Below are positions 4,978 through 62,632 of a stretch of DNA of 64,000 nt, piece by piece. Every line of letters starts with the position of its first letter. The first letter of the stretch is position 1. The stretch covers positions 1 through 64,000 of the forward strand of contig JAADIO010000048.1 in assembly GCA_013151235.1 (NCBI GenBank). The letters run 5' to 3'. The stretch is from Deltaproteobacteria bacterium (lineage in GTDB: Bacteria; CG2-30-53-67). Under the pieces are notes generated by a model, which ran no database searches, was not told the origin of the DNA, and was given only the letters and a program-made list of their open reading frames with translations. The translations under genes and the position numbers were made by a program.

Positions 4978-6297
4978 ATGAAAAAGATTGCAATCGGGCT
5001 TTTCGGATTCGGGACCATCGGTACGGGGGTGGCACAGGTCCTCGAAGAGAATCGTGAGGTGATTTCGCGCCGTCTCGGCGCCGAACTCTTCCTGAAGAAG
5101 ATTGTCGATCTTGATATTGAGACCGACCGGGGCATGACCCTGGACCGGAAGATTCTCTCCACAAACAGCGAAGAGATCCTAAACGATCCGGAAATATCCA
5201 TCGTGATCGAGCTGATCGGGGGAACCGGGGCGGCAAAGAAGGTTGTGGAAGCGGCCCTTTCCGCCGGGAAGCATGTGGTGACGGCCAACAAGGCGCTACT
5301 GGCCATTCACGGGGAAGAACTCTGCAAAAAGGCGCGACAACAGGGCGTGAAAATCTGCTACGAGGCGAGCGTGGGAGGAGGGATCCCGATTCTTCGTACG
5401 TTAAAAGAGGGACTCCCGGCGAACCGGATCGAGTCGATCTACGGAATTGTGAACGGTACGGCAAACTATATCCTGACGAAGATGACCGAAGAAGGGGAAG
5501 CCTTCGACAAGGTCCTGAAGGAGGCGATGGACCGCGGCTATGCCGAGGCGGATCCGACCTACGATGTGGAAGGGATCGACTCGGCCCACAAACTGGCGAT
5601 TCTGGCGTCCCTTGCCTTCGGGACACCCGTCCCCTTCGATCAGGTTTACACGGAAGGGATTTCACGGATTACTCCCCTCGATATTGAATATGCCAGGGGA
5701 TTTGGATACAAGATCAAGCTGTTGGGAATTACCAAGGCCTCCGATAATTCCATCGAGGTCCGGGTTCATCCGACAATGATTCCCGAGAGTACCCTGCTGG
5801 CCCAGGTGAATGGTGTCCTCAATGCGATCTATGTGAATGGGAATGCCGTGGGGCCGACCCTCTACTACGGCAAGGGGGCCGGGGCACTGCCGACGGCGAG
5901 CGCCGTGGTGGGCGACCTGATGGAGATTGCCCGGGACCTTCTGTATGGCGGTGTCGAACGTGTTCCCCTGGAATCCTTTCCGGAGGAATATCGGAAACCT
6001 GTGGTTGTGCGGGCCATGAACGAAGTGAGGACGAGATATTTTCTCCGCTTCTCCACGGCGGACCGCCCCGGAGTGCTTTCGAAGATTTCCGGGATCCTGG
6101 CTGATTTCGGGATCAGTATCTCTTCGGTGATTCAGACGGGTCGTAAATCCGACGGGCCGGTCCCGATCGTCATGGTGACCCACATGGCCCGGGAACGGAA
6201 TGTAAAGGAGGCCCTGGCCCGGATCGATGCCCTGGCGATGACGGAGGGGGAGACGGTGCTGATCCGGATTGAGGATCAAAATGGGGGAGAGGAATAG
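4978..6297 (+). CDS. hom: Homoserine dehydrogenase with ACT domain
   Basis: The enzyme reduces aspartate semialdehyde to homoserine, the branch point toward threonine and methionine. The Rossmann motif GLFGFGTIGTG lies at residues 6-16, followed by TANKALL near 100, VGGGIPILRTL near 125 and GTANYIL near 155. The C-terminal ~80 residues form an ACT domain (STADRPGVLSKISGILAD), which usually gives threonine feedback control. Length (439) is normal. The frame stays open upstream, but ATG 4978 (MKKIAIGLFGFG) fits the family's N terminus; no strong ribosome site is visible, so coupling to alaC is likely. Order is alaC-hom-thrC-apgM-lysC. Confidence 0.95.
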   Translation: MKKIAIGLFGFGTIGTGVAQVLEENREVISRRLGAELFLKKIVDLDIETDRGMTLDRKILSTNSEEILNDPEISIVIELIGGTGAAKKVVEAALSAGKHVVTANKALLAIHGEELCKKARQQGVKICYEASVGGGIPILRTLKEGLPANRIESIYGIVNGTANYILTKMTEEGEAFDKVLKEAMDRGYAEADPTYDVEGIDSAHKLAILASLAFGTPVPFDQVYTEGISRITPLDIEYARGFGYKIKLLGITKASDNSIEVRVHPTMIPESTLLAQVNGVLNAIYVNGNAVGPTLYYGKGAGALPTASAVVGDLMEIARDLLYGGVERVPLESFPEEYRKPVVVRAMNEVRTRYFLRFSTADRPGVLSKISGILADFGISISSVIQTGRKSDGPVPIVMVTHMARERNVKEALARIDALAMTEGETVLIRIEDQNGGEE

Positions 6298-6300
6298 AAA

Positions 6301-6351
6301 AAAGGGGCAGGCACAAAGCAAAGTCAAAAACGCAAAGCATTCACCATAGAG
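6301..6351. repeat. Dispersed A/G-rich repeat, copy A
   Basis: The hom-thrC spacer contains GGGGCAGGCACAAAG followed by an A-rich stretch and GCATTCACC. A similar string, in the same order, lies at about 38174-38236 in the nuoD-nuoE spacer. No coding potential or strong dyad is evident. It looks like an interspersed intergenic repeat tolerated within operons. Confidence 0.5.
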
Positions 6352-6408
6352 ACGATTAAGAATGAAAAAGCTGACTGCTGAAAGCTAAAATCATAAGGAG
6401 TGTAACGG

Positions 6409-7467
6409 TTGAAACGTTGGCGAGGAGTGATTGAAGAGTACCGTGAATTTTTGTCCGTGACGGATACGACCCCGGTGGTGACCCTGCTGGAAGGGGATAC
6501 GCCGCTTATTCATGCGAAGCGGCTGGCCGAGGCAATCCATCCGGATCTTTCGATCTATCTGAAATACGATGGGGCGAATCCGACGGGGTCTTTCAAGGAC
6601 CGGGGGATGACCATGGCGATCTCCAAGGCGGTGGAGGCCGGGGCGAAGGCCGTGATCTGTGCTTCCACAGGAAACACTTCCGCCGCTGCCGCGGCCTATG
6701 CGGCATGCTGCGGGATTCGGGCCTTTGTCCTGATCCCCGAGGGGAAGATCGCCCTGGGAAAACTCTCCCAGGCGATGATGCACGGGGCGAAGGTCCTCCA
6801 GATCCGGGGCAATTTTGATGAGGCACTGAACATCGTCCGGGAGGTCTCGGCACACTATCCGATCACCCTGGTGAACTCCATTAACCCTTACCGGATTGAG
6901 GGACAGACCACCGCCGCCTACGAGGTCTGCGACCAGCTGGGCGGTCCTCCTGATTATCATGCGCTTCCCGTGGGGAATGCCGGGAACATCACGGCCTACT
7001 GGAAGGGGTATCGCAACTATCGGGAGGCGGGGAGAATCGACCGGTTGCCGAGGATGATCGGTTTTCAGGCGGCAGGGGCGGCACCGATCGTCCTGGGCCA
7101 CCCCGTGGAGCACCCGGAGACGGTGGCCACGGCGATCCGGATCGGGAATCCCGCTTCGTGGAAATTCGCCGAAGCGGCGGCGGTGGAGTCCGAGGGGAAG
7201 ATCGACTGCGTGACGGATGAGGAGATCCTGAGTGCCTACCGGATGATCGCCTCCCTGGAAGGGATCTTCTGCGAACCGGCCTCGGCCGCCTCGGTGGCGG
7301 GTGTGATCAAGCGGAACAGGGAGGTCGGTTTTGAGAAAGGGAGTACCATTGTCTGTACCCTGACCGGCCACGGGCTCAAGGACCCCGATACGGCGATCTC
7401 CGTTTCGGAGAAGCCGGTTACCGTCCGGGCCGCAATTGATGAAGTGATCGAGGTGCTGGGATACTGA
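6409..7467 (+). CDS. thrC: Threonine synthase
   Basis: This PLP enzyme converts O-phosphohomoserine to threonine (352 residues, the short form without a zinc ribbon). The PLP-lysine motif [11 protein letters not shown] lies near residues 55-65 and [14 protein letters not shown] near 83-96. The phosphate-binding loop [12 protein letters not shown] is near 185, and the C terminus keeps [10 protein letters not shown]. The start is TTG 6409 with AAGGAG at 6395-6400. It lies in the hom operon, making it the likely housekeeping enzyme. A divergent 413-residue paralogue is encoded at 60832-62073. Confidence 0.95.
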
Positions 7468-7511
7468 TCGGGTGCTCCTCAGGATTCCGCTTGAGGACCC
7501 CGGAGGAAATG

Positions 7512-8699
7512 ATGAAATATATTGTATTGTTAGGCGACGGGATGGCGGATCGGCCCCTGAAAGAATTCGGGGGGAAAACGCCTCTGCAGGTTGCCGAAAC
7601 ACCGAATATGGACCGTCTTGCCGCAGGCGGGGAGATGGGACTGGTACGGACCGTTCCGGATTCGTTTACGCCCGGAAGCGATGTGGCCAACCTTTCCGTA
7701 CTCGGATATGATCCGGTACGTTACTTCTCCGGACGGGCTCCCCTCGAGGCGGCGAGCATGGGGGTGGAACTGGGGCCGGCGGATGTTGCCTTCCGGTGCA
7801 ACCTGGTGACCCTGCAGGATGACAAAATGGCCGATTTCAGTGCCGGTCACATCAGCACCGGGGAGGCGGAAGGGTTGATCCGGGCGGTGGATGCCGAGCT
7901 TTCCGATGCGGAGATTTCGTTCTATCCCGGTGTCAGCTATCGTCATCTCATGGTCTGGCGAGGGGGGAAGACCGGGGCGGTCTGCACCCCGCCCCATGAT
8001 ATCAGCGGACAGCCGGTGCGGGAATATCTTCCGCGAGGGACCGGTTCGGAACGGCTGAACGATCTGATGCTTTGCTCCCGGAGTGTGCTGGCGGATCATC
8101 CCGTCAATCAGAACCGGGTCCTGCATGGGGATGCTCCCGCCAATTCGATCTGGCTCTGGGGGCAGGGGAATCGTCCCTCTTTGCCCACGTTTCAGGAAAA
8201 ATACGGGGTGACGGGGGGGGTGATCTCTGCGGTGGACCTGATGAAGGGGATCGCGATCTATGCGGGGCTGAAAGCGGTCCATGTTCCCGGGGCCACCGGC
8301 TATTTTGACACCAATTTCCGGGGGAAGGCCCTGGCCGCGCTGGATCTGCTGGCCGAGGATGATTTTGTCTATCTCCATGTGGAAGCGGCTGACGAAGCCG
8401 GGCACATCGGGGATGCCGGGGAAAAGGTCCGGGCGATCGAAAACTTTGATCAACGGGTCGTCGGGGAACTTTTGCAGGGGTTGCCGAAACTCGGCGATTT
8501 CCGGATTCTGCTTCTGCCCGATCATCCGACGCCGATCGGAATCCGGACGCACAGCAGCGATCCGGCCCCCTTCGTTCTCTATGACAGCCGCAATATCCGG
8601 GAATCGGGTCGGCGCTATGATGAGGAGACCGCTGCAAAAGCCGGTCGGCTTGTGGATCCGGGCTATCAAATTATGGACCTTTTGATCAGGGAAGTGTAA
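7512..8699 (+). CDS. apgM: ApgM-type phosphoglycerate mutase homologue; candidate homoserine kinase
   Basis: The product belongs to the archaeal-type cofactor-independent phosphoglycerate mutase family (alkaline-phosphatase superfamily). It shows the metal motif GDGMADRP near the N terminus, the nucleophile region [28 protein letters not shown] and the late metal motif LLPDHPTP. Length is 395 residues from ATG 7512, which has GGAGG five bases upstream; a TTG 21 bases earlier is less likely. Known for the family: members that sit among threonine genes have been proposed as functional analogues of homoserine kinase. Here it follows hom and thrC, and no GHMP-type thrB is visible, so I infer phosphohomoserine formation rather than glycolysis. 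Confidence 0.85.
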
Positions 8700-52632: not shown

Positions 52633-53460
52633 TCAGAACTGAAGAAGCGTTCCTTCCTTTCTGGCCCGGTTGAGGGCACGCTGGAAGAGGAAAAGGCTTA
52701 CGGGGATGCCGAACAGGGCGAAGCCCGCCAGCGCCCAGAGATCGATCCCGAGCCGGGATACAGGTGTTCCCAGAAGAATGGCATGACGCATGGCGCGGAG
52801 GGCATAGGTCAGGGGGAGCAGGTTCGAACATTTCTGTACCCATTCCGGAAGGATGGTGACCGGATAATAGACTCCTCCCAGGAGGGTTGACAGGGTTCCG
52901 AAGAGGAAGGAGATTGGATCTCCCCGCTTGAAGACAAGGACAAAGGCGGCCGAGAGAATGCCGAAGGCGGAGAAGGCACAAATGGTCAGGACGAGAACAA
53001 CCAGCGTAGAGAGCAGATCGGCCGAGCCGACCTGGAGTCCGAAGCCGAAGATGCCGGTCAGCAGATAGAGTGCAACCTCATAGGTGACATAGAAATAATC
53101 CCAGAGACTGGAATAGACGAGGACGGCCAGATACCGGGTCGGGGTGATCAGCATTACTTCTACGGTTCCCGTTTCCTGTCCGTCCCGGACGGTATCGGCA
53201 AAGGTGCTCAGCGCCACGTTCAGGTACCGCGTAAAGGCGATCCCGATCAGGACAAAGGGGAAATACTTACCGCCGTAGGCGGCCAGATAAGGCGAAGCGG
53301 ATGTGCCGAAGAGGCGGGAGATAAAATAGAACATGACTACGGAAAAGAGAACGCCGAAGACCTGCCACAGAAAGGAAAGACGGTAACTTGCTGCCTCCAT
53401 GAAATCCCGACGGAGGAAGGAGAGCGGTTTATAGATCAGGGGAAGAGAGAGGGCGGTCAT
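52633..53460 (-). CDS. ABC-2 type permease
   Basis: The 275-residue product has six hydrophobic helices and the ABC-2 layout. An amphipathic N terminus (YKPLSFLRRDFMEAASYRLSF) precedes the first helix, and GVYYPVTILPEWVQKCSNLLPLTYALRAMR is the typical loop before the last helices. It adjoins the upstream ATPase gene with no gap, forming a two-component exporter. The cargo is unknown; related pairs export polysaccharides, drugs or glycolipids. Confidence 0.9.
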   Translation of the reverse strand: MTALSLPLIYKPLSFLRRDFMEAASYRLSFLWQVFGVLFSVVMFYFISRLFGTSASPYLAAYGGKYFPFVLIGIAFTRYLNVALSTFADTVRDGQETGTVEVMLITPTRYLAVLVYSSLWDYFYVTYEVALYLLTGIFGFGLQVGSADLLSTLVVLVLTICAFSAFGILSAAFVLVFKRGDPISFLFGTLSTLLGGVYYPVTILPEWVQKCSNLLPLTYALRAMRHAILLGTPVSRLGIDLWALAGFALFGIPVSLFLFQRALNRARKEGTLLQF

Positions 53461-54234
53461 TCAGACGGCCTCCTTCCGGGTGATCCGTGTATAGATATTT
53501 CCCAGGCCCGATCCCGTGCGCTCGTGGGGTTCGATCTCCTCAATCCCTCCCCGGCGCAGGATGCCGATCCGGTCACAAACCGTTTCCACTTCGCCGATGC
53601 GGTGCGTGACCATCAAAATGGTGGCCCCGGAACGCTCCGTCAGGAAACGGAGAGATTGCAGAAGGGTTCGTGCGGCCTCCGGGTCGAGGCCCCGCGTCGG
53701 TTCGTCCAGCAGGAGGATTTTTGCCCCCCCGAGAAGTCCACGCGCCACGGCAAGACGTTGCCGCATGCCTGTTGAATATGCATCAAAACGATGATCCAGA
53801 AAATCCTCCATCTCCAACAGATTCGTCAGTTCTCCGATCCGACGTTCCAGGGCCTTGCCGGTCAGATTCCACAAACGCCCGAAGAAGCGGAGGTTTTCCC
53901 GGCCGCTGAGGCGCCAGCAGAAACTTCGTTCATCGGAGTGGACCCAGCCGATCTTTTCCCTGACTTTGTTTTCTTCAGTCACAACATCGTGTCCTGCAAT
54001 TCGTACCGTTCCTTCATCGGGCCGGAGAAGGGTTGCCAGAACCTTGAGCAGGGTTGTCTTTCCGCCGCCGTTCGGTCCTAACAATACAAAAATCTCCCCC
54101 CGGCGAATGTCCAGATCCAGCCCTTCGAAGACCCGGATTTCATGTTGAATAGGAGAGGTGGAAAGCCAGTGGGCAATCCCCGTTGCAGGACGGAAAACCT
54201 TGGTGAGTTTTGAAACCTCGATAATGGAGGACAT
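53461..54234 (-). CDS. ABC-2 type transporter ATPase
   Basis: The 257-residue ATPase has GPNGGGKTTLLKVLATLL (Walker A), DERSFCWRLSGRENLRFFG (Q-loop region), YSTGMRQRLAVARGLL (signature) and ILLLDEPTRGLDPEA (Walker B). An extended N-terminal strand (GIAHWLSTSPIQHEIRVFEGL) resembles ATPases of polysaccharide or Nat-type exporters. The start at 54234 gives MSSIIEVSKLTKVF; a frame extension of 17 residues overlaps the upstream gene and is unlikely. Confidence 0.9.
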   Translation of the reverse strand: MSSIIEVSKLTKVFRPATGIAHWLSTSPIQHEIRVFEGLDLDIRRGEIFVLLGPNGGGKTTLLKVLATLLRPDEGTVRIAGHDVVTEENKVREKIGWVHSDERSFCWRLSGRENLRFFGRLWNLTGKALERRIGELTNLLEMEDFLDHRFDAYSTGMRQRLAVARGLLGGAKILLLDEPTRGLDPEAARTLLQSLRFLTERSGATILMVTHRIGEVETVCDRIGILRRGGIEEIEPHERTGSGLGNIYTRITRKEAV

Positions 54235-54236
54235 GA

Positions 54237-55457
54237 TCAAGTCTTCGGTGTTTTGTGATGGCTGGCACCGGCTTTCATGTTCCACCCATTCTTCTCACCG
54301 AGGATATCCTCTTCGTAAACGGACCGGATGATATAGATCAGGGGAGTATCCTTCAAACGGACGACTTTGGGTACCTTGAGGCTGTGCCCCTCTGCATCAT
54401 AGAGGATCTCCACCGTGGGTCGGAGAGGCCGGTCTTCACTGGTTTCGATTACCTTGCCGACTTCATTGGTATTCAGTTTCACAAACCCTTCCAGAGGGAA
54501 AACGGAAATCTTTTTGAGCAGGGTTTTGATCAGACGAGGAGCAAAAACCCCCTTTTCGCTCTCTACGATGATCTTGACGGCATCATAGGGGAGAAAACGG
54601 CGCCGTTGTGGACGAGTATGGGTCAGGGCCTCGTAGTAATCGACAAGACCGATGATCTGAGCGTACTCGTGAATCTCCTCACCGGTCAGCCCGCGGGGAT
54701 AGCCTTTTCCGTTGATCCGTTCATGTTCCTGCCGGACGACCGCGGCGATCCAGGTATAGGTAGGTCCGAGCCGGGAGAGCATCTCGTAGCTGTATTCCGG
54801 ATGACGTTTCATCTCCTCATATTCTTCCTTGCTCAGGACGTCTTCCTTGTTGATCAGTTCCAGATCGAGCTTGGCCATCCCGATGTCATGGAGTAACGCC
54901 ACCGTGCCGAGACGGATGAGCTGGTTTTCGTTGTAGTCGAGTCCCATTCCGATTTTGAGGGAGAAAATGGCCACATTGACGGCATGAGAGACAAGGTCGG
55001 TCGAAGAGTGACGGGTATAGACGGCCTTCAGATAGAGACGGTCCGCCGCCATGAGGCTGTGAACCATCCGTACGGTACATTCGGCAATCCGTTCCGCCGA
55101 GAAGGATTCCCCTGCCTTGCCGCGATCCATGGCGATCTGCACCTGTTCCTTGGATTCATCGTAGATCTTTTCCACATCTCCGTAGATCCACTCCCCTTCG
55201 GAACGCTTGGTTTCCACACGTTCCCGGAGGATGGACGATCGTCGGCGAAGCGCCTCCTGGGGCATCACATTCCCGATCCCCTGCTCTTCACTCTCCTTGA
55301 GGAGTTCATCGACGGAGAGGATCTCGCTCAGTTTTAGATCCCTTTTCGGAGGTTCCGGCTGTTCCATTTTCGGAGTTGCAGCCGGATCGGTGGGAGAAGA
55401 GGAGGGAGCCGATTTTGTTGCATCGGACTCTTTCAGAATATCCGTGATTCGTACCAT
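54237..55457 (-). CDS. HD-GYP domain protein
   Basis: The 406-residue product has a low-complexity Pro/Ser/Thr-rich N terminus (residues 10-40). A helical region and an HD-GYP domain at about 150-310 follow, with SHAVNVAIFSLKIGMGL, ALLHDIGMAK and EHERINGKGYPRGLTG. The first histidine of the usual HHE triplet is Glu and the Asp of the DGxGYP motif is Asn, a variant seen in other relatives. Activity is uncertain. A C-terminal beta-rich extension (residues 320-395) is not familiar. It is followed two bases later by the ABC ATPase. Confidence 0.82.
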   Translation of the reverse strand: MVRITDILKESDATKSAPSSSPTDPAATPKMEQPEPPKRDLKLSEILSVDELLKESEEQGIGNVMPQEALRRRSSILRERVETKRSEGEWIYGDVEKIYDESKEQVQIAMDRGKAGESFSAERIAECTVRMVHSLMAADRLYLKAVYTRHSSTDLVSHAVNVAIFSLKIGMGLDYNENQLIRLGTVALLHDIGMAKLDLELINKEDVLSKEEYEEMKRHPEYSYEMLSRLGPTYTWIAAVVRQEHERINGKGYPRGLTGEEIHEYAQIIGLVDYYEALTHTRPQRRRFLPYDAVKIIVESEKGVFAPRLIKTLLKKISVFPLEGFVKLNTNEVGKVIETSEDRPLRPTVEILYDAEGHSLKVPKVVRLKDTPLIYIIRSVYEEDILGEKNGWNMKAGASHHKTPKT

Positions 55458-55469
55458 AACAAAACTCCC

Positions 55470-56267
55470 TTATAAAGAACCGTGGGCGGATTTTTCCACG
55501 ATTGCACTATTGATGAAATTGACACTCTCTCCGCATCCGATCAGGAGGCTTAAGTCACAGATATTGTTGATCTTCCGGGGAATCCCGCAACTGAAATCAT
55601 AGATCTTACGGAGGGCATCGTTCGTGAACATGTTCCGTCTTGCTCCTGCTTTCTTGAGACGGAAAAAGATGAATTTGACCATCTCCTTCACATCGAGAGC
55701 CTGGAGGTGATAACGAATGGCGATCCGTTGATTGAGTTGAGTAATATGTTCGATCTTCTCTTTCAGTTCCGGCTGGCCGATGAGAATCAGCGTCAGCAGA
55801 AAACGGTCATTGAGCTGAAAATTCAGCAGCAGCCGCAATTCTTCGAAGGTGTGTTCACTGTTGATCAACTGGGCTTCATCAACAATGATGACGGAGTTTT
55901 TTCCCTCGTTGAGGTTCTGATAGAGATGATCATTCAACCGATGAATCATCTCCCGCCTGGATTCGTTCGTTGTCTCCATCCCGAACTGGTAGAGAATTTC
56001 CCGGAGAAAATCTTCCGATTCCAGGCAGGGGTTTTCAATCAGAGCAATCTGATAGTTCCGTTTCACCAGCCGTTGGACAAGAAGCCGGCTGATGGTGGTC
56101 TTCCCGCAGCCGATCTCTCCCGTCAGCATTGCCGCACCTTTGCGGCTTTCAATCGCGTAGATCAGACGGGTCAGAGCCTCTTCGTGAAGCGGCGACTTGT
56201 AGAGGTACCCGGGATTGGGAAGGTTTTCGAAGGGGTATTCGATGAGGCCCCAGTAATCTTTGTACAT
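55470..56267 (-). CDS. ExeA/GspA-like AAA ATPase
   Basis: The 265-residue product begins MYKDYWGLIEYPFENLPNP, the signature N terminus of ExeA/GspA and related secretion or exosortase-associated ATPases. Walker A is GEIGCGKTTISRLL, Walker B is SVIIVDEAQLI, and sensor-like GQPELKEKI and RYHLQAL follow. ExeA normally carries a peptidoglycan-binding domain after the ATPase; here the protein ends first. Its partner could be the HD-GYP gene 12 bases downstream. A promoter lies at 56379-56408. Confidence 0.87.
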   Translation of the reverse strand: MYKDYWGLIEYPFENLPNPGYLYKSPLHEEALTRLIYAIESRKGAAMLTGEIGCGKTTISRLLVQRLVKRNYQIALIENPCLESEDFLREILYQFGMETTNESRREMIHRLNDHLYQNLNEGKNSVIIVDEAQLINSEHTFEELRLLLNFQLNDRFLLTLILIGQPELKEKIEHITQLNQRIAIRYHLQALDVKEMVKFIFFRLKKAGARRNMFTNDALRKIYDFSCGIPRKINNICDLSLLIGCGESVNFINSAIVEKSAHGSL

Positions 56268-56417: not shown

Positions 56418-57389
56418 TCAGGGAGTTGGAGGGAGAAACTTGCGGAGTTTCCTGAGGATCTCGTTGGTATAGCGGAAAAATTCGTCGGCAACGATGGCGA
56501 CCCAGAGTCCTTTTTCGCCCCGCTCTTCCAGAACTTTCATTCCGTAGACGGTCATCCCGGAGGAAGGCCCTGCGACAATCCCTTCCCGGCATATCATTTC
56601 CACCAGGGTGCGATAGGCATCGTCGGAGTCGACGAGGATTTTTTCATCGATGATCGATTCATCATAGATCTCCGGCTTCATCGTGTATTCCGTGTTGCGC
56701 AGACCGTAAAACTCGTGGCTCTGCTCACTCGGTTCCACGGAGATGATCCTGATCTCCGGGTTCTTTTCCTTCAGGTATCGGCCCACCCCGGTGATGGTGC
56801 CCCCGGTGCCGACGCCGCTGATGAAGTGGGTGATCTTTCCGGCCGTCTGCGCCCAGATCTCCGGTCCCGTCGTTTGAAAATGGATCTCCGGATTATGACG
56901 ATTTCCATACTGATAGGGAACCATATGATCGGGCAGGTTCTTGTAACCGAAGGCGGCGGCAATGGCTCCTTCTCCGGGGAAACGGGGGCAGGCGTCATCG
57001 GGGCTTAAATCCATCGAGGAGGTCGTCAGGGTCAGCAGCGCCTTCTTGCCGGCGGGGATCTGCTCCCCCGAGGTGATCACCGGCTTCTTGTATCCTAAAA
57101 GGTTCAGAAAAACGCTGAGGGCCACCCCCGTGTTTCCCGATGTCGGTTCGACACAGGTGGTCTCCGGCTTCAAATCACCATCTTCAATGGCGCCGGTAAT
57201 CATGCCGAAAGCGGTCCGGTCCTTGATCGATCCCACGGGGTTGAAAAATTCCAGTTTCGCGCAGGCGATCCGATCCTTCTTCGGTTCAATAACATGATTC
57301 AGGCGCACCAAAGGAGTGTCCCCGATCAGCTCGGTGATGTTGTTGTAGATCCCCCGATGTTTCAGCGGTGGTCTGGTATGCTCTGTCAT
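56418..57389 (-). CDS. Cysteine synthase homologue (CysK/CysM family)
   Basis: This fold-type II PLP enzyme (323 residues) carries ELIGDTPLVRLN, the PLP-lysine motif FNPVGSIKDRTAFG and PTSGNTGVALS. SGVGTGGTITGVGRYL binds the phosphate. The mid-region (SGEQIPAGKKALL, then CPRFPGEGAI) differs from classical O-acetylserine enzymes. The gene is the last of a run encoding a Gly-Gly carrier, an activating enzyme and a JAMM protease, as in the mycobacterial CysM-CysO-Mec pathway. I infer that it uses a protein thiocarboxylate; acceptor (O-acetyl- or O-phosphoserine) is unknown. ATG 57389 is preferred to 57392 for ribosome-site spacing. Confidence 0.87.
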   Translation of the reverse strand: MTEHTRPPLKHRGIYNNITELIGDTPLVRLNHVIEPKKDRIACAKLEFFNPVGSIKDRTAFGMITGAIEDGDLKPETTCVEPTSGNTGVALSVFLNLLGYKKPVITSGEQIPAGKKALLTLTTSSMDLSPDDACPRFPGEGAIAAAFGYKNLPDHMVPYQYGNRHNPEIHFQTTGPEIWAQTAGKITHFISGVGTGGTITGVGRYLKEKNPEIRIISVEPSEQSHEFYGLRNTEYTMKPEIYDESIIDEKILVDSDDAYRTLVEMICREGIVAGPSSGMTVYGMKVLEERGEKGLWVAIVADEFFRYTNEILRKLRKFLPPTP

Positions 57390-57470
57390 CATCTCTCCTT
57401 TCCGGCACCCGGCGGGGAGGATTCTTCCGTTCTGTCATATAAGAAGCCGCCGGTTCATACAGATGAAGCG

Positions 57471-57713
57471 TCACTTTTTCTTTGCAATTATTTGCCAGTC
57501 CGTTTCGTTGACGGCGCTGACTTCCAGCACCTCGTGTCCCTCCCCCCTGAGACTGCGGGGCACGTTTTCCGTGGCGGGCTGATGGTCCACGATGATTCTC
57601 AGTATCTCGCCGGCCGAGAGGGTCTCCAACGCCAGTTTCGTCTTGACGAAGGTGTAGGGACAGACTTCTCCTTTGATGTCCAGTTCCCTGTCGATCTTGT
57701 ATGGATCGTTCAT
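57471..57713 (-). CDS. tusA: TusA-family sulfurtransferase
   Basis: The 80-residue protein is a TusA-like persulfide carrier. The active-site motif is GEVCPYTFVKTKLALE near residues 15-30, with CPYT in place of the usual CPxP. RIIVDHQPATENVPRSL is characteristic of a TusA subgroup found next to cysteine-synthase genes. GAGGAG lies just upstream. It probably receives sulfane sulfur and passes it to or from the neighbouring DsrE-type proteins. Confidence 0.87.
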   Translation of the reverse strand: MNDPYKIDRELDIKGEVCPYTFVKTKLALETLSAGEILRIIVDHQPATENVPRSLRGEGHEVLEVSAVNETDWQIIAKKK

Positions 57714-57791
57714 GAAGTTTTCTCCTCATAATATCATTTCCCGTTCCCTGCCGGAATCCATGAGAGGTGATTGATCCCCCCCGCCGGAGCG

Positions 57792-58052
57792 TCACCAGCA
57801 GATTACGGCATCCGCCTCCAGAAGAAGGGAAACAATGGCATCATAGTCTACGAGTTCGCCTGTGATCGACTTTCCTCTCGCCTCGACGTCGTCCCGGCAG
57901 GCATAGACCTTCTCGATCCCTTCCACCGGAGTCAGCACGGCATCATGGAGGAGGAGTACGGAAACCTCGGCTCCGGCCGCCTGTTCCTCCAGGATTTCAA
58001 CGGCATAAGGATCCTGCCGGCTTTTGAGAACATGGAGGATTTTTTTCGGCAT
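57792..58052 (-). CDS. DsrH/TusB-like protein
   Basis: The 86-residue protein has the DsrH/TusB layout: KKILHVLKS at the start, VSVLLLHDAV, VYACRDDVEARG and a C-terminal VICW ending in Trp. A single central cysteine lies in VYACRDD. Members form hexamers with DsrE and DsrF. ATG 58052 is used; a GTG two codons earlier is an alternative. It lies 10 bases after the DsrF-like gene. Confidence 0.72.
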   Translation of the reverse strand: MPKKILHVLKSRQDPYAVEILEEQAAGAEVSVLLLHDAVLTPVEGIEKVYACRDDVEARGKSITGELVDYDAIVSLLLEADAVICW

Positions 58053-58062
58053 ACCCACTCCC

Positions 58063-58407
58063 TCAACAGCCGATTACAAGATCGCTCCCGGCAAGGATCT
58101 TGCCGAGGGTACGACGATTCTCCCGGGTTACGGGGAAGACGGTCTCGACGATGCTCCGCTCCGCCATTGACTCCTTCTCCGCCAGAAAGGGACACCCTAA
58201 TTCCCGGAGAGTCCGCACATGGCGGTGAATTTCGGACAAACCGATCCTCTCCGGTGCCGGGGCCTGCAGGAGAAAGACCCCTTCTTCGGCCAGCACGATC
58301 TTGACCCTATTCCCGGAAAGCGTCATCCCCAGGGACATGCGGAGCATTTCCGAGATAAACATTCGTTCCAGGGGCGGTTTCCGTAGAAGTATGACGAGCT
58401 CTTTCAT
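58063..58407 (-). CDS. DsrF/TusC-like protein
   Basis: The 114-residue protein has a DsrE-superfamily fold pattern: ELVILLRKPP, then MSLGMTLSGNRVKIVLAEEGVFLLQ and a C-terminal GSDLVIGC. It is the middle of three DsrE-type genes and most likely the DsrF/TusC position. No strong TusC-specific motif is seen. Its own cysteines (in ELGCPFL and the final residue) are not in the usual DsrE place. Confidence 0.68.
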   Translation of the reverse strand: MKELVILLRKPPLERMFISEMLRMSLGMTLSGNRVKIVLAEEGVFLLQAPAPERIGLSEIHRHVRTLRELGCPFLAEKESMAERSIVETVFPVTRENRRTLGKILAGSDLVIGC

Positions 58408-58418
58408 GAATATTTGCC

Positions 58419-58733
58419 TCAGTGAAAGGAGAGGAACGCATCGCCCTTCGCGACCATTTCCGACAGATCATACTGACTGCCGAAGAGGACCCCCTCCCGG
58501 CGGGGCACTTTTCTTTGGTCGGCATCGTAGGCACAGAGAATAATCTCCACCCCCCGGTCCGCAAGTTCCATGAAATCGTCCCGGAGAATATGGTAGACCC
58601 CGTCGTACATCAGAAAGATCCGGACCCGGTGCCCCTGCCGGAGGGCCGCTTCCGAGATCTTCATCACGGTCCGGCGATTTTCACTTTCCGGGCTGGAGGT
58701 CAGCAGAAGACCGATCGCAGCGGACTTGCCCAT
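58419..58733 (-). CDS. DsrE/TusD-like protein
   Basis: The 104-residue protein has the DsrE pattern IGLLLTSSPESENRRTVMKISEAALRQGHRVRIFLM and the cysteine segment VEIILCAYDADQRKV, where the active-site cysteine of DsrE/TusD sits. It is therefore the likely persulfide carrier of the trio. ATG 58733 overlaps the stop of the protease gene (TAATG); a frame extending upstream is ignored. Confidence 0.8.
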   Translation of the reverse strand: MGKSAAIGLLLTSSPESENRRTVMKISEAALRQGHRVRIFLMYDGVYHILRDDFMELADRGVEIILCAYDADQRKVPRREGVLFGSQYDLSEMVAKGDAFLSFH

Positions 58734-59188
58734 TATGCATAACTCCCTTCCCGGAATTGTTTCCGGGGGATGATCCTCAATCGCTCTTCCCGGAAGGATC
58801 TCTCCTGCGGCTCCAAAACCCAGGACCTTGACGATGGGTCTTTCCCCTCGATGACTGAAACAATCAGATAGGAATATTCGTTCCATGCACGGTGAAGATC
58901 CACGGAGGAGGGGAGGGAAGGCCCATCGGGATGAGAGTGATAAAAGCCGAGGATCTCCCGACCGGCCTTTCGGGCCTCCCGGTCTACCCGCAGGAAGTCT
59001 CTTCCGTCGATCGCATAACGGTCACATCCCCGAAGGTGTTCGCGGTTCTTTGTCGGAAAATTTTTTTCAACCCGTTTCTCTTTCCCCAACCGGCCGACGA
59101 GAATTCCGCAACATTCCTGAGGATATTCCCGGACGGCCTGCCGATGGATGCGTTGAAGAAGAGAGGGGGAAATCAGGAGTGCGGTCAA
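58733..59188 (-). CDS. JAMM/MPN metalloprotease (Mec/HcyD-like)
   Basis: This about 151-residue protein is a bacterial JAMM protease. The catalytic Glu lies in REYPQECCGILVG. The zinc motif is FYHSHPDGPSLPSSVDL, an exact HxH-x7-S-x2-D arrangement. In mycobacteria Mec releases cysteine from the carrier CysO; in Wolinella HcyD trims the carrier HcyS to expose Gly-Gly. Here the carrier already ends in Gly-Gly, so the first role fits better. TTG 59188 has GAGGTG eight bases upstream; TTG 59206 is a weaker choice. The stop overlaps the DsrE start. Confidence 0.88.
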   Translation of the reverse strand: MTALLISPSLLQRIHRQAVREYPQECCGILVGRLGKEKRVEKNFPTKNREHLRGCDRYAIDGRDFLRVDREARKAGREILGFYHSHPDGPSLPSSVDLHRAWNEYSYLIVSVIEGKDPSSRSWVLEPQERSFREERLRIIPRKQFREGSYA

Positions 59189-59221
59189 GAATGGATCACC
59201 TCGCAAGGGGACGGAAAGCCG

Positions 59222-60028
59222 TCAGAAGTTTACCCGGCAGAATTCTTCATAATCGATCAATTCCGTAATGGTCGGATGCTCCCCGCAGACGGGGCAGCCG
59301 GGATCTTTCCGCACCTTGATGGTCCGGAACTCCATTTCCAGCGCCTCGTAATTCAGCATCCGGCCCTGCAGAAGTTTTCCCGTCTTCAGGATCAGCTTCA
59401 GAACTTCCGTCGCCTGAAGCAGACCGATCACGCCGGGGAGAACCCCGAGAACCCCCGCTTCTTCACAGGAGGCCGTCATCCCCGGCGGGGGCGGCTCCCG
59501 GAAGAGACAGCGATAACAGGGACCCTCTCCGGGGAGAATGGTCATGACCTGACCGGTAAAACGGAAGACCGCTCCGTAGGAGAGGGGCTTGCCGGTCAGG
59601 ACACAGGCGTCATTGACAAGATAGCGGGTCGGAAAATTGTCGCTCCCGTCGACAACAATGTCATAGCCCTGAAGGATCTCCAGAATATTCTTTGAGGTCA
59701 CCCGCTCCTGATAGGTCGTTACCTCCACGGCCGGATTCAGCGCTTCCAGGGTTTCTTTGGCGGAGAGTGCCTTGTTCTTCCCCAGGTCCGTCATGCTGTG
59801 TACCACCTGCCGTTGCAGGTTGCTCAACTCCACGTGGTCGCCGTCGACAATCCCGATCTTTCCCACGCCTGCGGCGGCGAGATAGTAACCTACCGGCGCC
59901 CCGAGACCTCCGCCTCCGATCATCAACACACGGGCATCACGGATCTTTTTCTGGCCTGCTCCCCCGACCTCCGGGAGAAGAATATGCCGGCTGTAGCGCT
60001 TGATTTCGTCTTCCGAAAAGTCAAACAT
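59222..60028 (-). CDS. ThiF/MoeB/HesA-type adenylyltransferase
   Basis: The E1-like enzyme (268 residues) adenylates the C terminus of a sulfur carrier. RYSRHILLPEVGGAGQ opens the domain. GGGGLGAPVGYYLAAAGVG binds ATP, and VDGDHVELSNLQRQV and DGSDNFPTRYLVNDAC follow. Zinc ligands are CYRCLF and CPVCGE. The catalytic-type cysteine lies in TASCEEAGVLGVLPG. No rhodanese domain is attached, so sulfur must come from another protein, plausibly the DsrEFH/TusA-like set. It lies three bases from the NIL gene. Confidence 0.92.
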   Translation of the reverse strand: MFDFSEDEIKRYSRHILLPEVGGAGQKKIRDARVLMIGGGGLGAPVGYYLAAAGVGKIGIVDGDHVELSNLQRQVVHSMTDLGKNKALSAKETLEALNPAVEVTTYQERVTSKNILEILQGYDIVVDGSDNFPTRYLVNDACVLTGKPLSYGAVFRFTGQVMTILPGEGPCYRCLFREPPPPGMTASCEEAGVLGVLPGVIGLLQATEVLKLILKTGKLLQGRMLNYEALEMEFRTIKVRKDPGCPVCGEHPTITELIDYEEFCRVNF

Positions 60029-60030
60029 TT

Positions 60031-60255
60031 TCAGTTGCGTTCCTCCACGTTCACGTGCATCGTTCGTAAAAACGAGACTGCGCGCTCGATCTCCTTTTCC
60101 TCACCCTCCAGTTCCAGGAGGACCCATCCTTCCTGTTCCGTTACCGCCGCCTGAAAGATGCTGGTCACCACCTTGAATTCGTGACCGATCCGATAGATGA
60201 CCGGTTCCTGAATCAACTCGTCGGAAAAGGTCAGACTGATCATTTTCTTCGCCAT
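60031..60255 (-). CDS. Single-domain NIL protein 2
   Basis: The 74-residue product is one NIL domain (ISLTFSDELIQEPVIYRIGHEFKVVTSIF, then GWVLLELEGEEKEIERAVSFL). NIL domains were first defined at the C terminus of MetN methionine-transport ATPases, where they bind methionine. Small NIL-ferredoxin proteins are linked to homocysteine synthesis in methanogens. It differs from NIL protein 1 by an insertion-free but divergent C terminus (TMHVNVEERN). Confidence 0.88.
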   Translation of the reverse strand: MAKKMISLTFSDELIQEPVIYRIGHEFKVVTSIFQAAVTEQEGWVLLELEGEEKEIERAVSFLRTMHVNVEERN

Positions 60256-60279
60256 ATCATTGCTCCCCGTCCTCCACCG

Positions 60280-60516
60280 CTATTCGATCACATCCATTAC
60301 GACCGGTTCGACCCGCACGTCCTGTGACTTCAGGTATTCCATGGCCCGGCCGATCTCTTCCGGTTCCCCTTCCAATTCCAGCCCGACAACCCCGATCTCG
60401 TCGGTCACACTGGCACAACGAATGTTGGTCACCACATTGAACTTGTGACCCACATGATAGATCAGCGGCTCCCGGATCAGTTTGGGGGGAAAGGTCAGAT
60501 AAACTTTACGTTTCAT
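60280..60516 (-). CDS. Single-domain NIL protein 1
   Basis: The 78-residue product is a NIL domain (KVYLTFPPKLIREPLIYHVGHKFNVVTNI, then VVGLELEGEPEEIGRAMEYL). It is a clear paralogue of the next gene. ATG 60516 is supported by AGGAGG ahead of it; that site also holds the stop of the carrier-protein gene, so translation is coupled. Confidence 0.88.
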   Translation of the reverse strand: MKRKVYLTFPPKLIREPLIYHVGHKFNVVTNIRCASVTDEIGVVGLELEGEPEEIGRAMEYLKSQDVRVEPVVMDVIE

Positions 60517-60518
60517 CC

Positions 60519-60794
60519 TCAACCTCCTGCAATGGCGGGAACGATGGAAAGAGCGTCCCCGTCCTTGATCTTTGTTTCCAGATCGTTCAGAAACCGGATA
60601 TCCTCGTCATTGAGATAGACGTTCACGAATCTTCGCAATTTCTCATTCTCATCGCAGATTCGTTCCTGAATGCCGGAATATTGCTTCTCCATGTTCGAAA
60701 TGATTTCCCGAACCGTTTCCCCTTCAGCGGTCACCTCCGATGCGCCATCGGTCAGTGATCGAAGCGGCGTTGGAATTCTGATTGTTACGGACAT
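60519..60794 (-). CDS. MoaD/ThiS-like sulfur-carrier protein
   Basis: The 91-residue beta-grasp protein starts MSVTIRIPTPLRSLTDGASEV and contains NVYLNDEDIRFLNDLETKIKDGDALSIVPA. It ends in AIAGG, the diglycine needed for adenylation and thiocarboxylate formation. Length and the DIRFL...GD.L.IVPAIAGG block are close to the CysO/MoaD-like subgroup. A frame upstream exists but ATG 60794 follows GGGAGGT. It lies next to the threonine-synthase paralogue and the NIL genes. Confidence 0.92.
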   Translation of the reverse strand: MSVTIRIPTPLRSLTDGASEVTAEGETVREIISNMEKQYSGIQERICDENEKLRRFVNVYLNDEDIRFLNDLETKIKDGDALSIVPAIAGG

Positions 60795-60831
60795 TATTGA
60801 CCTCCCATGTTTCAGTTTTTTAGATGTTTTA

Positions 60832-62073
60832 TCATAACCGGGACTGATTTTCCAGCAAAAGGGCTTCAAAGGAGTCGAGCCTGGAATCGATCACCGGGTG
60901 GGGATGCAACCGGCCGACGAGGGCTTCCTGAGTTTTCAGGCCATTTCCTGTAATGGAAACCACGATCGATTCGTCGCGGGGGATCTTTCCCTGTTCAATG
61001 AGTTTTTTCGCCGCCCCCAGGGTGACCCCGCCGGCGGTTTCCGTGAAGATCCCTTCCGTCTCCGCCAGCAGTTTGATCGCTTCGATGATCTCATCGTCGG
61101 TGACCTCTTCTCCCCACCCTCCCGAATCGGTCATGGTCCGGATGGCGTAGAACCCGTCCGCAGGATTTCCGATGGCCAGCGATTTGGCGATGGTGTCCGG
61201 TTTGACCGGTTTGAAAAGCTCCGTCCCTTTCTTCACGGCCGTTACAATCGGGGAGCAGCCGGTCGCCTGGGCTCCGAACATCTTCGTGGGGCTCTCCTCC
61301 ACCAGACCGATCTTCGCCATCTCCTGAAAGGATTTCTTCAGCTTGGTGATCAGCGAACCTCCGGCCATCGGCACCACCACATTCTGCGGAAGCCGCCACC
61401 CTAATTGCTCTGCGATTTCGTATCCGAAGGTTTTGGATCCTTCCGCATAGAAGGGACGAAGATTGATGTTGACGAATGCCCACCGGTGTTGGTCGGCCAC
61501 TTCGGTACAGAGCCGGTTTACATCGTCATAGTTCCCTTCGACCCCCACGAGGTTCGTCCCGAAGACCTGCGTTCCCATAATCTTTCCCTGCTCCAGGTCG
61601 GCCGGGATGAAGACGTAGCTCTTCAGACCGGCGGACGAAGCACAGGCCGCCACGGCATTGGCCAGATTCCCCGTCGATGCGCAGGCAATCGTGTCGAAGC
61701 CGAACTCCTTTGCTTTCGAGACCGCCACGGCGACCACCCGGTCCTTGAAGGAGAGCGTTGGGAAACTGACAGCGTCATTCTTGATATAGAGTTCCGAGAC
61801 GCCGAGTTTGTGCGCCAGGTTTTCCGCCCGGACGAGAGGCGTATAACCGACGTTCTCTCCTACGGTCGGTGCTTCATCCAGGGGGAGCAGTTCCAGATAA
61901 CGCCACATGTCCGGCGGCCGGGCCATGATCTTTTCACGTGACAAGACGTCGGCAATCTCATCATATTGATAGACCACTTCCAGCGGCCCGAAACAGAACT
62001 CACAGATATTGATCGGATCCTTGGGGTATTCTCTTCCGCATTCCCTGCATTTCAAACCCTGTACATAACCCAT
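60832..62073 (-). CDS. Zinc-ribbon threonine-synthase paralogue
   Basis: The 413-residue fold-type II PLP enzyme has an N-terminal zinc ribbon (CRECGREY...CEFCFG). The PLP-lysine motif is PTLSFKDRVVAVAVS, and the adjacent loop reads STGNLANAVAACA, where housekeeping ThrC has [22 protein letters not shown] binds phosphate. A normal threonine synthase is encoded at 6409-7467. Placement beside a sulfur carrier, NIL proteins and an Rrf2 regulator suggests it may act on O-phosphohomoserine with carrier-bound sulfur to make homocysteine. That is inference; many databases would simply call it threonine synthase. Confidence 0.85.
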   Translation of the reverse strand: MGYVQGLKCRECGREYPKDPINICEFCFGPLEVVYQYDEIADVLSREKIMARPPDMWRYLELLPLDEAPTVGENVGYTPLVRAENLAHKLGVSELYIKNDAVSFPTLSFKDRVVAVAVSKAKEFGFDTIACASTGNLANAVAACASSAGLKSYVFIPADLEQGKIMGTQVFGTNLVGVEGNYDDVNRLCTEVADQHRWAFVNINLRPFYAEGSKTFGYEIAEQLGWRLPQNVVVPMAGGSLITKLKKSFQEMAKIGLVEESPTKMFGAQATGCSPIVTAVKKGTELFKPVKPDTIAKSLAIGNPADGFYAIRTMTDSGGWGEEVTDDEIIEAIKLLAETEGIFTETAGGVTLGAAKKLIEQGKIPRDESIVVSITGNGLKTQEALVGRLHPHPVIDSRLDSFEALLLENQSRL

Positions 62074-62090
62074 TTCCCTGTCCCTTTCAT

Positions 62091-62534
62091 TTAGATCTGA
62101 TACATATCCCGGGAAAGACTCTCCCGCTTTTTTTCTCGCTCCGCAACATCTTCCAGAGTGATTGATTTCAGATGATTCACGATCTTCTCATTGACTTCGC
62201 CCCAGATATCACGGGTCACACACCGGTCCGACCGTTGGCAGAAAGAGCGGTCTGCCACACACTCCGTCAAGCTGAAGGCGCCTTCCAGCACGGTGATAAT
62301 CGTGTAGAGATCAATTTCAGCGGGTGACCTTGCCAGGTGATAACCGCCGTGCGGCCCCCGGGTACTCTTGACCAGACCGCCGACCCGCAAGGGAGTGACC
62401 AACTGCTCCAGATACTTCACGGAGATTTCCTGCCGTTTCGAAACCTCTCGAAGGAGGATCGGGCCTTCTCCGAAATGAAGTGCAAGATCGAGCATGAATC
62501 GTGTGCCGTATCGTCCCCGTGTTGAAAGTTTCAA
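62091..62534 (-). CDS. Rrf2-family transcriptional regulator
   Basis: The 147-residue regulator starts MKLSTRGRYGTRFMLDLAL, and its winged-helix part contains VKSTRGPHGGYHLARSP. Three cysteines at 92, 99 and 105 (ECVADRSFCQRSDRC) match the iron-sulfur ligand set of IscR-type members, with one extra residue in the first gap. CymR, a cysteine-metabolism repressor, is in the same family. It is the first gene of the sulfur operon, 17 bases before the threonine-synthase paralogue. Self-regulation is likely. The start is TTG 62534. Confidence 0.9.
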   Translation of the reverse strand: MKLSTRGRYGTRFMLDLALHFGEGPILLREVSKRQEISVKYLEQLVTPLRVGGLVKSTRGPHGGYHLARSPAEIDLYTIITVLEGAFSLTECVADRSFCQRSDRCVTRDIWGEVNEKIVNHLKSITLEDVAEREKKRESLSRDMYQI

Positions 62535-62584
62535 TGGTCCAGGCCCTCTTAGTAGCTTATTATCCCTATCTGTTTAGTCAAGTT

Positions 62585-62613
62585 AAGATACTCGAAATAA
62601 AAAAGGGTGTCAA
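62585..62613 (-). promoter_or_regulatory. Promoter of the Rrf2-sulfur operon
   Basis: On the minus strand a perfect TTGACA (62613-62608) and TATCTT (62590-62585) are separated by 17 bases. ACTTGACTAA (62583-62574), at the predicted start, resembles half of an IscR-type operator and could bind the encoded Rrf2 protein. Confidence 0.72.
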
Positions 62614-62632
62614 GCAATTTTTTTAAGAAAAT

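Follow-up and report, generated by a model that had tools for sequence, protein, structure and literature searches.

We analyzed a putative sulfur-assimilation operon in a 64,000-nucleotide stretch of deltaproteobacterial DNA (assembly GCA_013151235.1, contig JAADIO010000048.1, positions 1 to 64,000; hereafter the window). The operon consists of twelve genes that all lie on the minus strand, from position 62534 to 56418, and every gene listed in the initial annotation was recovered. The order is Rrf2, a ThrC-like gene, a Gly-Gly carrier, NIL 1, NIL 2, a ThiF/MoeB-like E1 enzyme and a JAMM protease, followed by DsrE, DsrF, DsrH, TusA and a CysM-like gene. With the JAMM gene starting at the TTG codon at 59188, the intergenic gaps are 17, 37, 2, 24, 2, 33, -1, 11, 10, 78 and 78 nucleotides, the largest being 78 nucleotides and the sole overlap being that of the JAMM stop with the DsrE start. 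This JAMM start is the likelier one (Shine-Dalgarno-like GAGGTG), with 59206 also possible. Family assignments were backed by Pfam and NCBIfam for all operon genes, that of DsrH being weak by sequence and better by fold (Table 1).

Table 1. Features of the operon, in gene order, and of a separate cluster in the window
Feature	Position	Strand	Evidence
Promoter region with conserved box (A)CTT(T/G)ACTAAACAGATAGG(A/G)ATAATAAG, candidate Rrf2 operator	62535..62632	-	
Rrf2-family regulator, IscR-like, first operon gene	62091..62534	-	PF02082, 129 bits
MetM-type ThrC paralogue P0011, pyridoxal 5'-phosphate (PLP) enzyme	60832..62073	-	PF00291, 240 bits
Sulfur-carrier protein, beta-grasp, CysO/MetO type, ends AIAGG	60519..60794	-	PF02597 (ThiS), 61 bits
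NIL protein 1, MetN C-terminal-domain type	60280..60516	-	PF09383, 49 bits
NIL protein 2, without cysteine	60031..60255	-	PF09383, 57 bits
ThiF/MoeB-type E1, carrier adenylyltransferase, without rhodanese domain	59222..60028	-	PF00899, 283 bits
JAMM metalloprotease, Mec/HcyD-like, motif E...HSHPDGPSLPSSVD	58733..59188	-	Prok-JAB, 88 bits; PDB 2kcq match
DsrE/TusD-like protein, one conserved Cys (ILCAYDADQRK)	58419..58733	-	PF02635, 40 bits
DsrF/TusC-like protein, without conserved Cys	58063..58407	-	PF02635, 27.5 bits; TIGR03010, 23 bits
DsrH/TusB-like protein, conserved Cys (YACRDDVEARG)	57792..58052	-	TIGR03011, 31.9 bits
TusA, active-site motif CPYTFVKTKLAL	57471..57713	-	PF01206, 77 bits
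CysM-like cysteine synthase homologue	56418..57392	-	PF00291, 176 bits; cysKM, 257 bits
hom-thrC-'proposed homoserine kinase' (TIGR02535) cluster, separate from the operon	4978..8699	+	canonical ThrC at 6409-7467

The ThrC-like protein, P0011, has an N-terminal zinc-ribbon-like CxxC...CxxC motif and the PLP lysine K110, and its gene ends 37 nucleotides from that of the AIAGG-ending carrier. In a tree of 92 proteins, P0011 grouped with 68 further ThrC-like proteins, almost all of them encoded at carrier loci, in a clade that spans many phyla and includes 7 proteins from Streptomyces/Kitasatospora. A fully supported branch of length 1.78 separates this clade from 18 canonical ThrC proteins, among them 1uim, 6cgq and the genome's own ThrC. 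Branch support was taken from the Shimodaira-Hasegawa-like approximate likelihood ratio test (SH-aLRT) in a quick tree search; because several long branches come together, the finer order is unsure. Like ThrC, the clade has the PLP lysine and an S-T-G-N loop; its N-terminal CxxC...CxxC is nearly invariant, and conserved ThrC positions are altered (T88 to L, A113 to E, N157 to R, R160 to Y and R242 to A in 1uim numbering). The tree rejects P0011 as a canonical ThrC; judged by its sequence, P0011 is a MetM homologue. The clade was identified with MetM by genus, gene pairing and riboswitch rather than by comparison with the Streptomyces albulus sequence itself. MetM, with the sulfur carrier MetO as its partner, is a homocysteine synthase of Streptomyces that uses O-phosphohomoserine (Hasebe et al. 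2024, as cited in PMC12172450), and the earlier view that the ThrC paralogue falls outside the described pathways must therefore be abandoned.

Relatives were found by a search with NIL1, after which the surrounding stretches were read. A carrier alignment was also scanned against 84,980 named species genomes, from which the best 80 of at least 572 relatives were taken. Together with the earlier loci, the best carrier relatives gave 71 loci with a MetM-type gene and 22 carrier loci without one. The operon was found in all six family genomes examined, as far as the contigs reach. Gene order is kept in five of these (G001-G005), which argues against a chance arrangement; the exceptions are the JAMM and CysM genes of genus g3, an internal stop in G001 and stretches that end at contig ends. 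In the two g3 genomes (G003 and G005), the JAMM and CysM genes are absent from the operon and the remaining genes are kept. In distant genomes the core consists of the ThrC-like, carrier and NIL genes, with CysM, JAMM, E1 and TusA in variable order. This core recurs in many phyla, and the gene order is not unique to this genome.

Scans with Rfam gave matches to the S-adenosylmethionine (SAM) riboswitch SAM-I before MetM-type operons in Streptomyces, Planctomycetota, Zetaproteobacteria, Kiritimatiellae, Verrucomicrobiota, Methylomirabilota, Nitrospira and deltaproteobacterial metagenome-assembled genomes (MAGs). A covariance model built from 17 hits and then run over 95 loci (1.29 Mb) returned 32 hits, each directly upstream of a MetM-type operon and on the coding strand. 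SAM-I was thus found at 32 of the 71 MetM loci, as compared to none of the 22 carrier loci without MetM (Fisher p = 2e-5, uncorrected for kinship and cut contigs). Five of the riboswitch-linked operons hold a carrier-NIL fusion, and 16 are loci with a NIL gene. A SAM riboswitch has also been reported upstream of S. albulus metM (as cited in PMC12172450). Because MetM and SAM-I are linked, the module most likely makes homocysteine or methionine. The SAM riboswitches on ThrC-like operons, absent from carrier loci without a ThrC-like gene, also argue against a cysteine operon of the CysM-CysO-Mec type, in which the ThrC-like protein would be a second threonine synthase or a threonine deaminase. 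The presence of CysM and JAMM genes that track each other, the CysO-like carrier and a cyanobacterial homologue with threonine synthase and deaminase activity (PMC12172450) would fit such an operon. We nevertheless consider it unlikely, since the g3 operons without CysM and JAMM keep the ThrC-like, carrier, E1 and DsrEFH genes and the genome has a canonical ThrC already.

The JAMM and CysM-like genes form a pair that is gained or lost as a unit. A CysM gene is present in 28 of 31 loci with JAMM, as compared to 26 of 62 other loci (p = 5e-6). Since JAMM tracks CysM and both are missing together in g3, this suggests that JAMM serves the cysteine branch, by analogy with the action of Mec on CysO-cysteine, and that a JAMM gene in the operon is not required for the MetM branch. 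The arginine in the 'YGLRN' motif of the CysM-like protein appears to align with Arg220 of Mycobacterium tuberculosis CysM, the residue associated with O-phosphoserine specificity, but other CysM proteins are basic at this position too. A role of this protein as a cystathionine synthase is unlikely in a genome without a PF01053 lyase. The nearest relative (G001; L039 6892-7311) carries a stop codon inside its JAMM gene, immediately ahead of the HSHPD motif, and the neighbouring genes are intact.

The genome encodes two ThiS-like carriers and two E1 proteins. Outside the operon, ThiS and ThiF each occur once, both in the thi cluster, which makes the operon carrier and its E1 a dedicated pair. 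The ThiF frame of the thi cluster (contig C35:16965-17591) holds one in-frame TGA, which may reflect a pseudogene, a sequencing error or recoding. The solved structures nearest to the operon carrier are 4n6e and 3dwg, the latter being M. tuberculosis CysO. The former, the best match, is a CysO from the BexX thiosugar system and would suit a carrier and E1 that work towards a different thio product, such as molybdopterin, thiolated tRNA or a secondary metabolite, with the synthases as passengers; with ThiS as the only other carrier, the operon carrier may also act as MoaD. Such an arrangement appears more unlikely still than a cysteine operon, given that the ThrC-like gene adjoins the carrier across many phyla, that the module is under SAM control in other phyla and that the operon contains no moa, mnm or ttu gene. 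The carrier also exceeds the NCBIfam cut-off for SAMP1 (63.2 vs 60 bits), and the E1 and JAMM proteins resemble UbaA and desampylase, respectively, both under cut-off. A carrier acting mainly as a SAMP-like protein modifier, with JAMM as its deconjugase, is nonetheless very improbable, as SAMP-type families share folds with sulfur carriers, the gene context is sulfur metabolism and the g3 operons keep the carrier without a JAMM gene.

In other phyla, the carrier and the counterpart of NIL1 form a single fusion protein. In 10 loci the frame runs through the carrier Gly-Gly into a NIL domain, and a JAMM gene is present in 8 of these. The predicted model of one fusion (L079) has two confident domains; the first matches the CysO structures 4n6e and 3dwg, and the second matches 3dhx and 2qrr, which represent the C-terminal domain of MetN. 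The sole internal stretch with a predicted local distance difference test score (pLDDT) below 50 is residues 89-91, the A-G-G junction. The solved Thermus 'MoaD related protein' 1v8c also extends beyond Gly-Gly, and at least one residue follows Gly-Gly in 67 of 93 carriers, where some long tails may be mis-called frames. C-terminal extensions were not significantly associated with JAMM presence (p = 0.23), whereas CysM does explain JAMM. An internal Gly-Gly carrier joined to a second protein is also seen in the MoaD-MoaE fusion, which a JAMM protease cleaves (Yang et al. 2018, as cited in PMC11237513); in the carrier-NIL fusions the partner is NIL and JAMM cleavage is putative. The NIL proteins were rejected as persulfide carriers, since NIL2 has no cysteine and the NIL1 cysteine is not conserved.

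As the E1 has no rhodanese domain, the sulfur must come from outside the E1, and the TusA and DsrEFH proteins of the operon are obvious candidates for its source. Three DsrE-superfamily subunits stand in a row with the DsrE cysteine present, as expected of DsrEFH/TusBCD. DsrH falls just below the Pfam cut-off (23.0 vs 24.4 bits), and its model, of modest confidence (mean pLDDT 62.5), matches DsrEFH structures (2hy5) near the top. The NCBIfam equivalog cut-offs for TusD, TusC and TusB were missed (18.8, 23.0 and 31.9 bits vs 89, 94 and 49), and the three proteins form a divergent branch. The DsrE, DsrH and TusA cysteines are conserved within the family and also in L124, a Poribacteria operon that holds Rrf2, carrier, E1, CysM, JAMM, DsrE, DsrF, DsrH, TusA and a second E1. 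This operon independently repeats the association of DsrEFH-TusA with a carrier. The 2.6 Mb genome has ten TusA-family matches, the operon TusA being one of them, and twelve DsrE-family matches (contigs C3, C16, C22, C55, C72 and C19), several of them TusA-DsrE neighbours, a large set of sulfur transferases.

Gene content, conservation, MetM clade membership, riboswitch linkage and conserved cysteines were all obtained by computation. They agree well with the initial proposal of a carrier-thiocarboxylate operon feeding one or two PLP synthases, and we consider it probable that the operon draws on protein-bound sulfur to make homocysteine and, probably, cysteine. The route that we infer, including each chemical step and the sulfur flow, would be as follows. 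Sulfane sulfur would be taken by TusA and handed on via DsrEFH to the carrier, an order that is itself presumed. The E1 would adenylate the C-terminal glycine of the carrier, and a persulfide would turn the adenylate into a thiocarboxylate. The MetM-type enzyme would then exchange the phosphate of O-phosphohomoserine for carrier sulfur, yielding homocysteine. The CysM-like enzyme would carry out an analogous reaction on a presumed substrate, activated serine, and JAMM would free the carrier-bound cysteine. The NIL proteins, which share their domain type with the MetN regulatory domain, may serve beside the carrier as a methionine-responsive brake or a scaffold. Control would lie with SAM-I riboswitches in other phyla and may lie with the Rrf2 regulator, whose gene precedes the module, in this family. 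The genomic case is strong for homocysteine synthesis and weaker for the sulfur relay, for cysteine synthesis and for the function proposed for the NIL proteins. A more specific scheme is possible, if rather doubtful: one thiocarboxylated carrier, charged through TusA-DsrEFH in place of a rhodanese and modulated by NIL proteins that bind methionine, would feed both MetM (O-phosphohomoserine) and CysM (O-phosphoserine), with a carrier-NIL precursor elsewhere being cut after Gly-Gly by JAMM.

Several observations weigh against synthesis of homocysteine and cysteine by this operon. No SAM or other riboswitch was found in the operon, and no SAM riboswitch in the window or the family, where an Rrf2 gene stands in its place. 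A SAM riboswitch was also reported absent in the cyanobacterial MetM homologue (51.6% to MetM), which was described chiefly as a threonine deaminase that also has threonine synthase activity (PMC12172450); the riboswitch is a regulatory trait rather than defining for MetM/MetO chemistry. Only the family and the Poribacteria operon showed DsrEFH in full, so the MetM core does not need this set. The CysM-like protein matches cysteine and cystathionine synthases at the family level only. Finally, the genome contains a complete DUF39/NIL-ferredoxin operon together with CysE and CysK, so that homocysteine and cysteine each have another route.

In this genome, which is 99% complete, no full-length PF01053 enzyme (MetY-type or lyase) was found. 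The DUF39, CysK and NIL-ferredoxin genes are adjacent on one strand (contig C2:12936-15323), pairing the DUF39 homocysteine route with a cysteine synthase, and CysE is encoded as well. Thus, the operon would be a second route in this genome, perhaps for low sulfide. Its O-phosphohomoserine is likely to come from the hom-thrC-kinase cluster on the same contig. The arrangement of these genes in a row, followed by a probable aspartokinase gene, fits the TIGR02535 assignment. Among 25 genomes with MetM, 13 had neither DUF39 nor a full-length PF01053 enzyme (MAGs and drafts; MetX/MetA not searched), so that MetM is the only visible homocysteine route in these. Two Aquificaceae MAGs (L101, L102) carry MetM-carrier pairs; Aquifex aeolicus, which belongs to this group, is listed among organisms with an unknown homocysteine route (Price et al. 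2018, PMC5764234).

The core of the operon corresponds to known systems, namely MetM/MetO (2024), CysM-CysO-Mec and operon classes 4c and 4e (PMC1779556). As in Streptomyces, a ThrC-like PLP enzyme of the same clade is encoded directly beside a Gly-Gly carrier, and the SAM-I upstream in Streptomyces is shared by many other phyla. Of the twelve genes, the Streptomyces loci showed just this pair in the stretch that was read, whereas the present operon adds NIL, E1, JAMM, DsrEFH, TusA and CysM and has an Rrf2 gene but no riboswitch. With CysM-CysO-Mec of M. tuberculosis it shares a CysO-like carrier, a CysM-type synthase and JAMM in one locus, but it adds the ThrC-like enzyme, NIL proteins, DsrEFH and TusA. 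HcyS-HcyD-HcyF of Wolinella and the class 4e operons (Iyer et al. 2006, PMC1779556) likewise combine a ThiS/MoaD-like carrier, E1, JAMM and SirA/TusA in one sulfur operon. The initial comparison with HcyS/HcyD/HcyF fails, as the genome has no MetY-type PF01053 enzyme; instead of the O-acetylhomoserine sulfhydrylase MetY, the operon has a MetM-type enzyme. The DUF39/NIL-ferredoxin pathway shares the homocysteine product and the NIL domain, but uses another enzyme, and the operon NIL proteins lack its ferredoxin domain. DsrEFH/TusA and the NIL proteins stay additions to the described pathways, as first noted.

Judged by the readable literature, the new elements are the joint operon, the putative DsrEFH relay, the carrier-NIL fusions and the breadth of SAM-I control. 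A CysM-JAMM pair that is gained or lost together is likewise absent from the accounts of MetM/MetO and CysO/Mec that were consulted. No paper tying NIL proteins or DsrEFH to carrier-based methionine synthesis was found in a search that left most subscription journals outside. The results extend the MetM/MetO route from Streptomyces to many phyla, with SAM riboswitches as an independent regulatory signature, and provide a candidate homocysteine route for genomes showing none of the other routes tested. If real, the relay would supply sulfur for charging the carrier with no need of a rhodanese. The best NCBIfam names for these proteins are threonine synthase and small modifier protein, so that auxotrophies predicted from genomes may be in error.

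The initial annotation had also given the operon its own regulator; the Rrf2 gene does stand first and encodes a putative regulator of the operon. The Rrf2 protein has three cysteines (C-x6-C-x5-C) at the cluster-ligand region of the alignment and, with an Rrf2 domain and three Cys ligands, is predicted to be of the IscR type. It scored 131 bits against IscR and 123 against CymR in NCBIfam, each under cut-off. A sigma-70-like site (TTGACA-17-TATCTT) begins at 62613, the upper limit given in the initial annotation, and the upstream block with the box of Table 1 is kept in six family genomes. In G002 the box precedes the ThrC-like gene, with the Rrf2 gene not adjacent. We regard the box as a candidate operator for the Rrf2 protein and no more. 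Terminator-like sites showed no excess (8 vs 7.8 expected from shuffling). Immediately downstream of the operon, on the same strand (52633-56267), lie genes for an XrtA/PEP-CTERM-type AAA ATPase and an HD-domain protein, together with apparent ATP-binding cassette (ABC) transporter genes.

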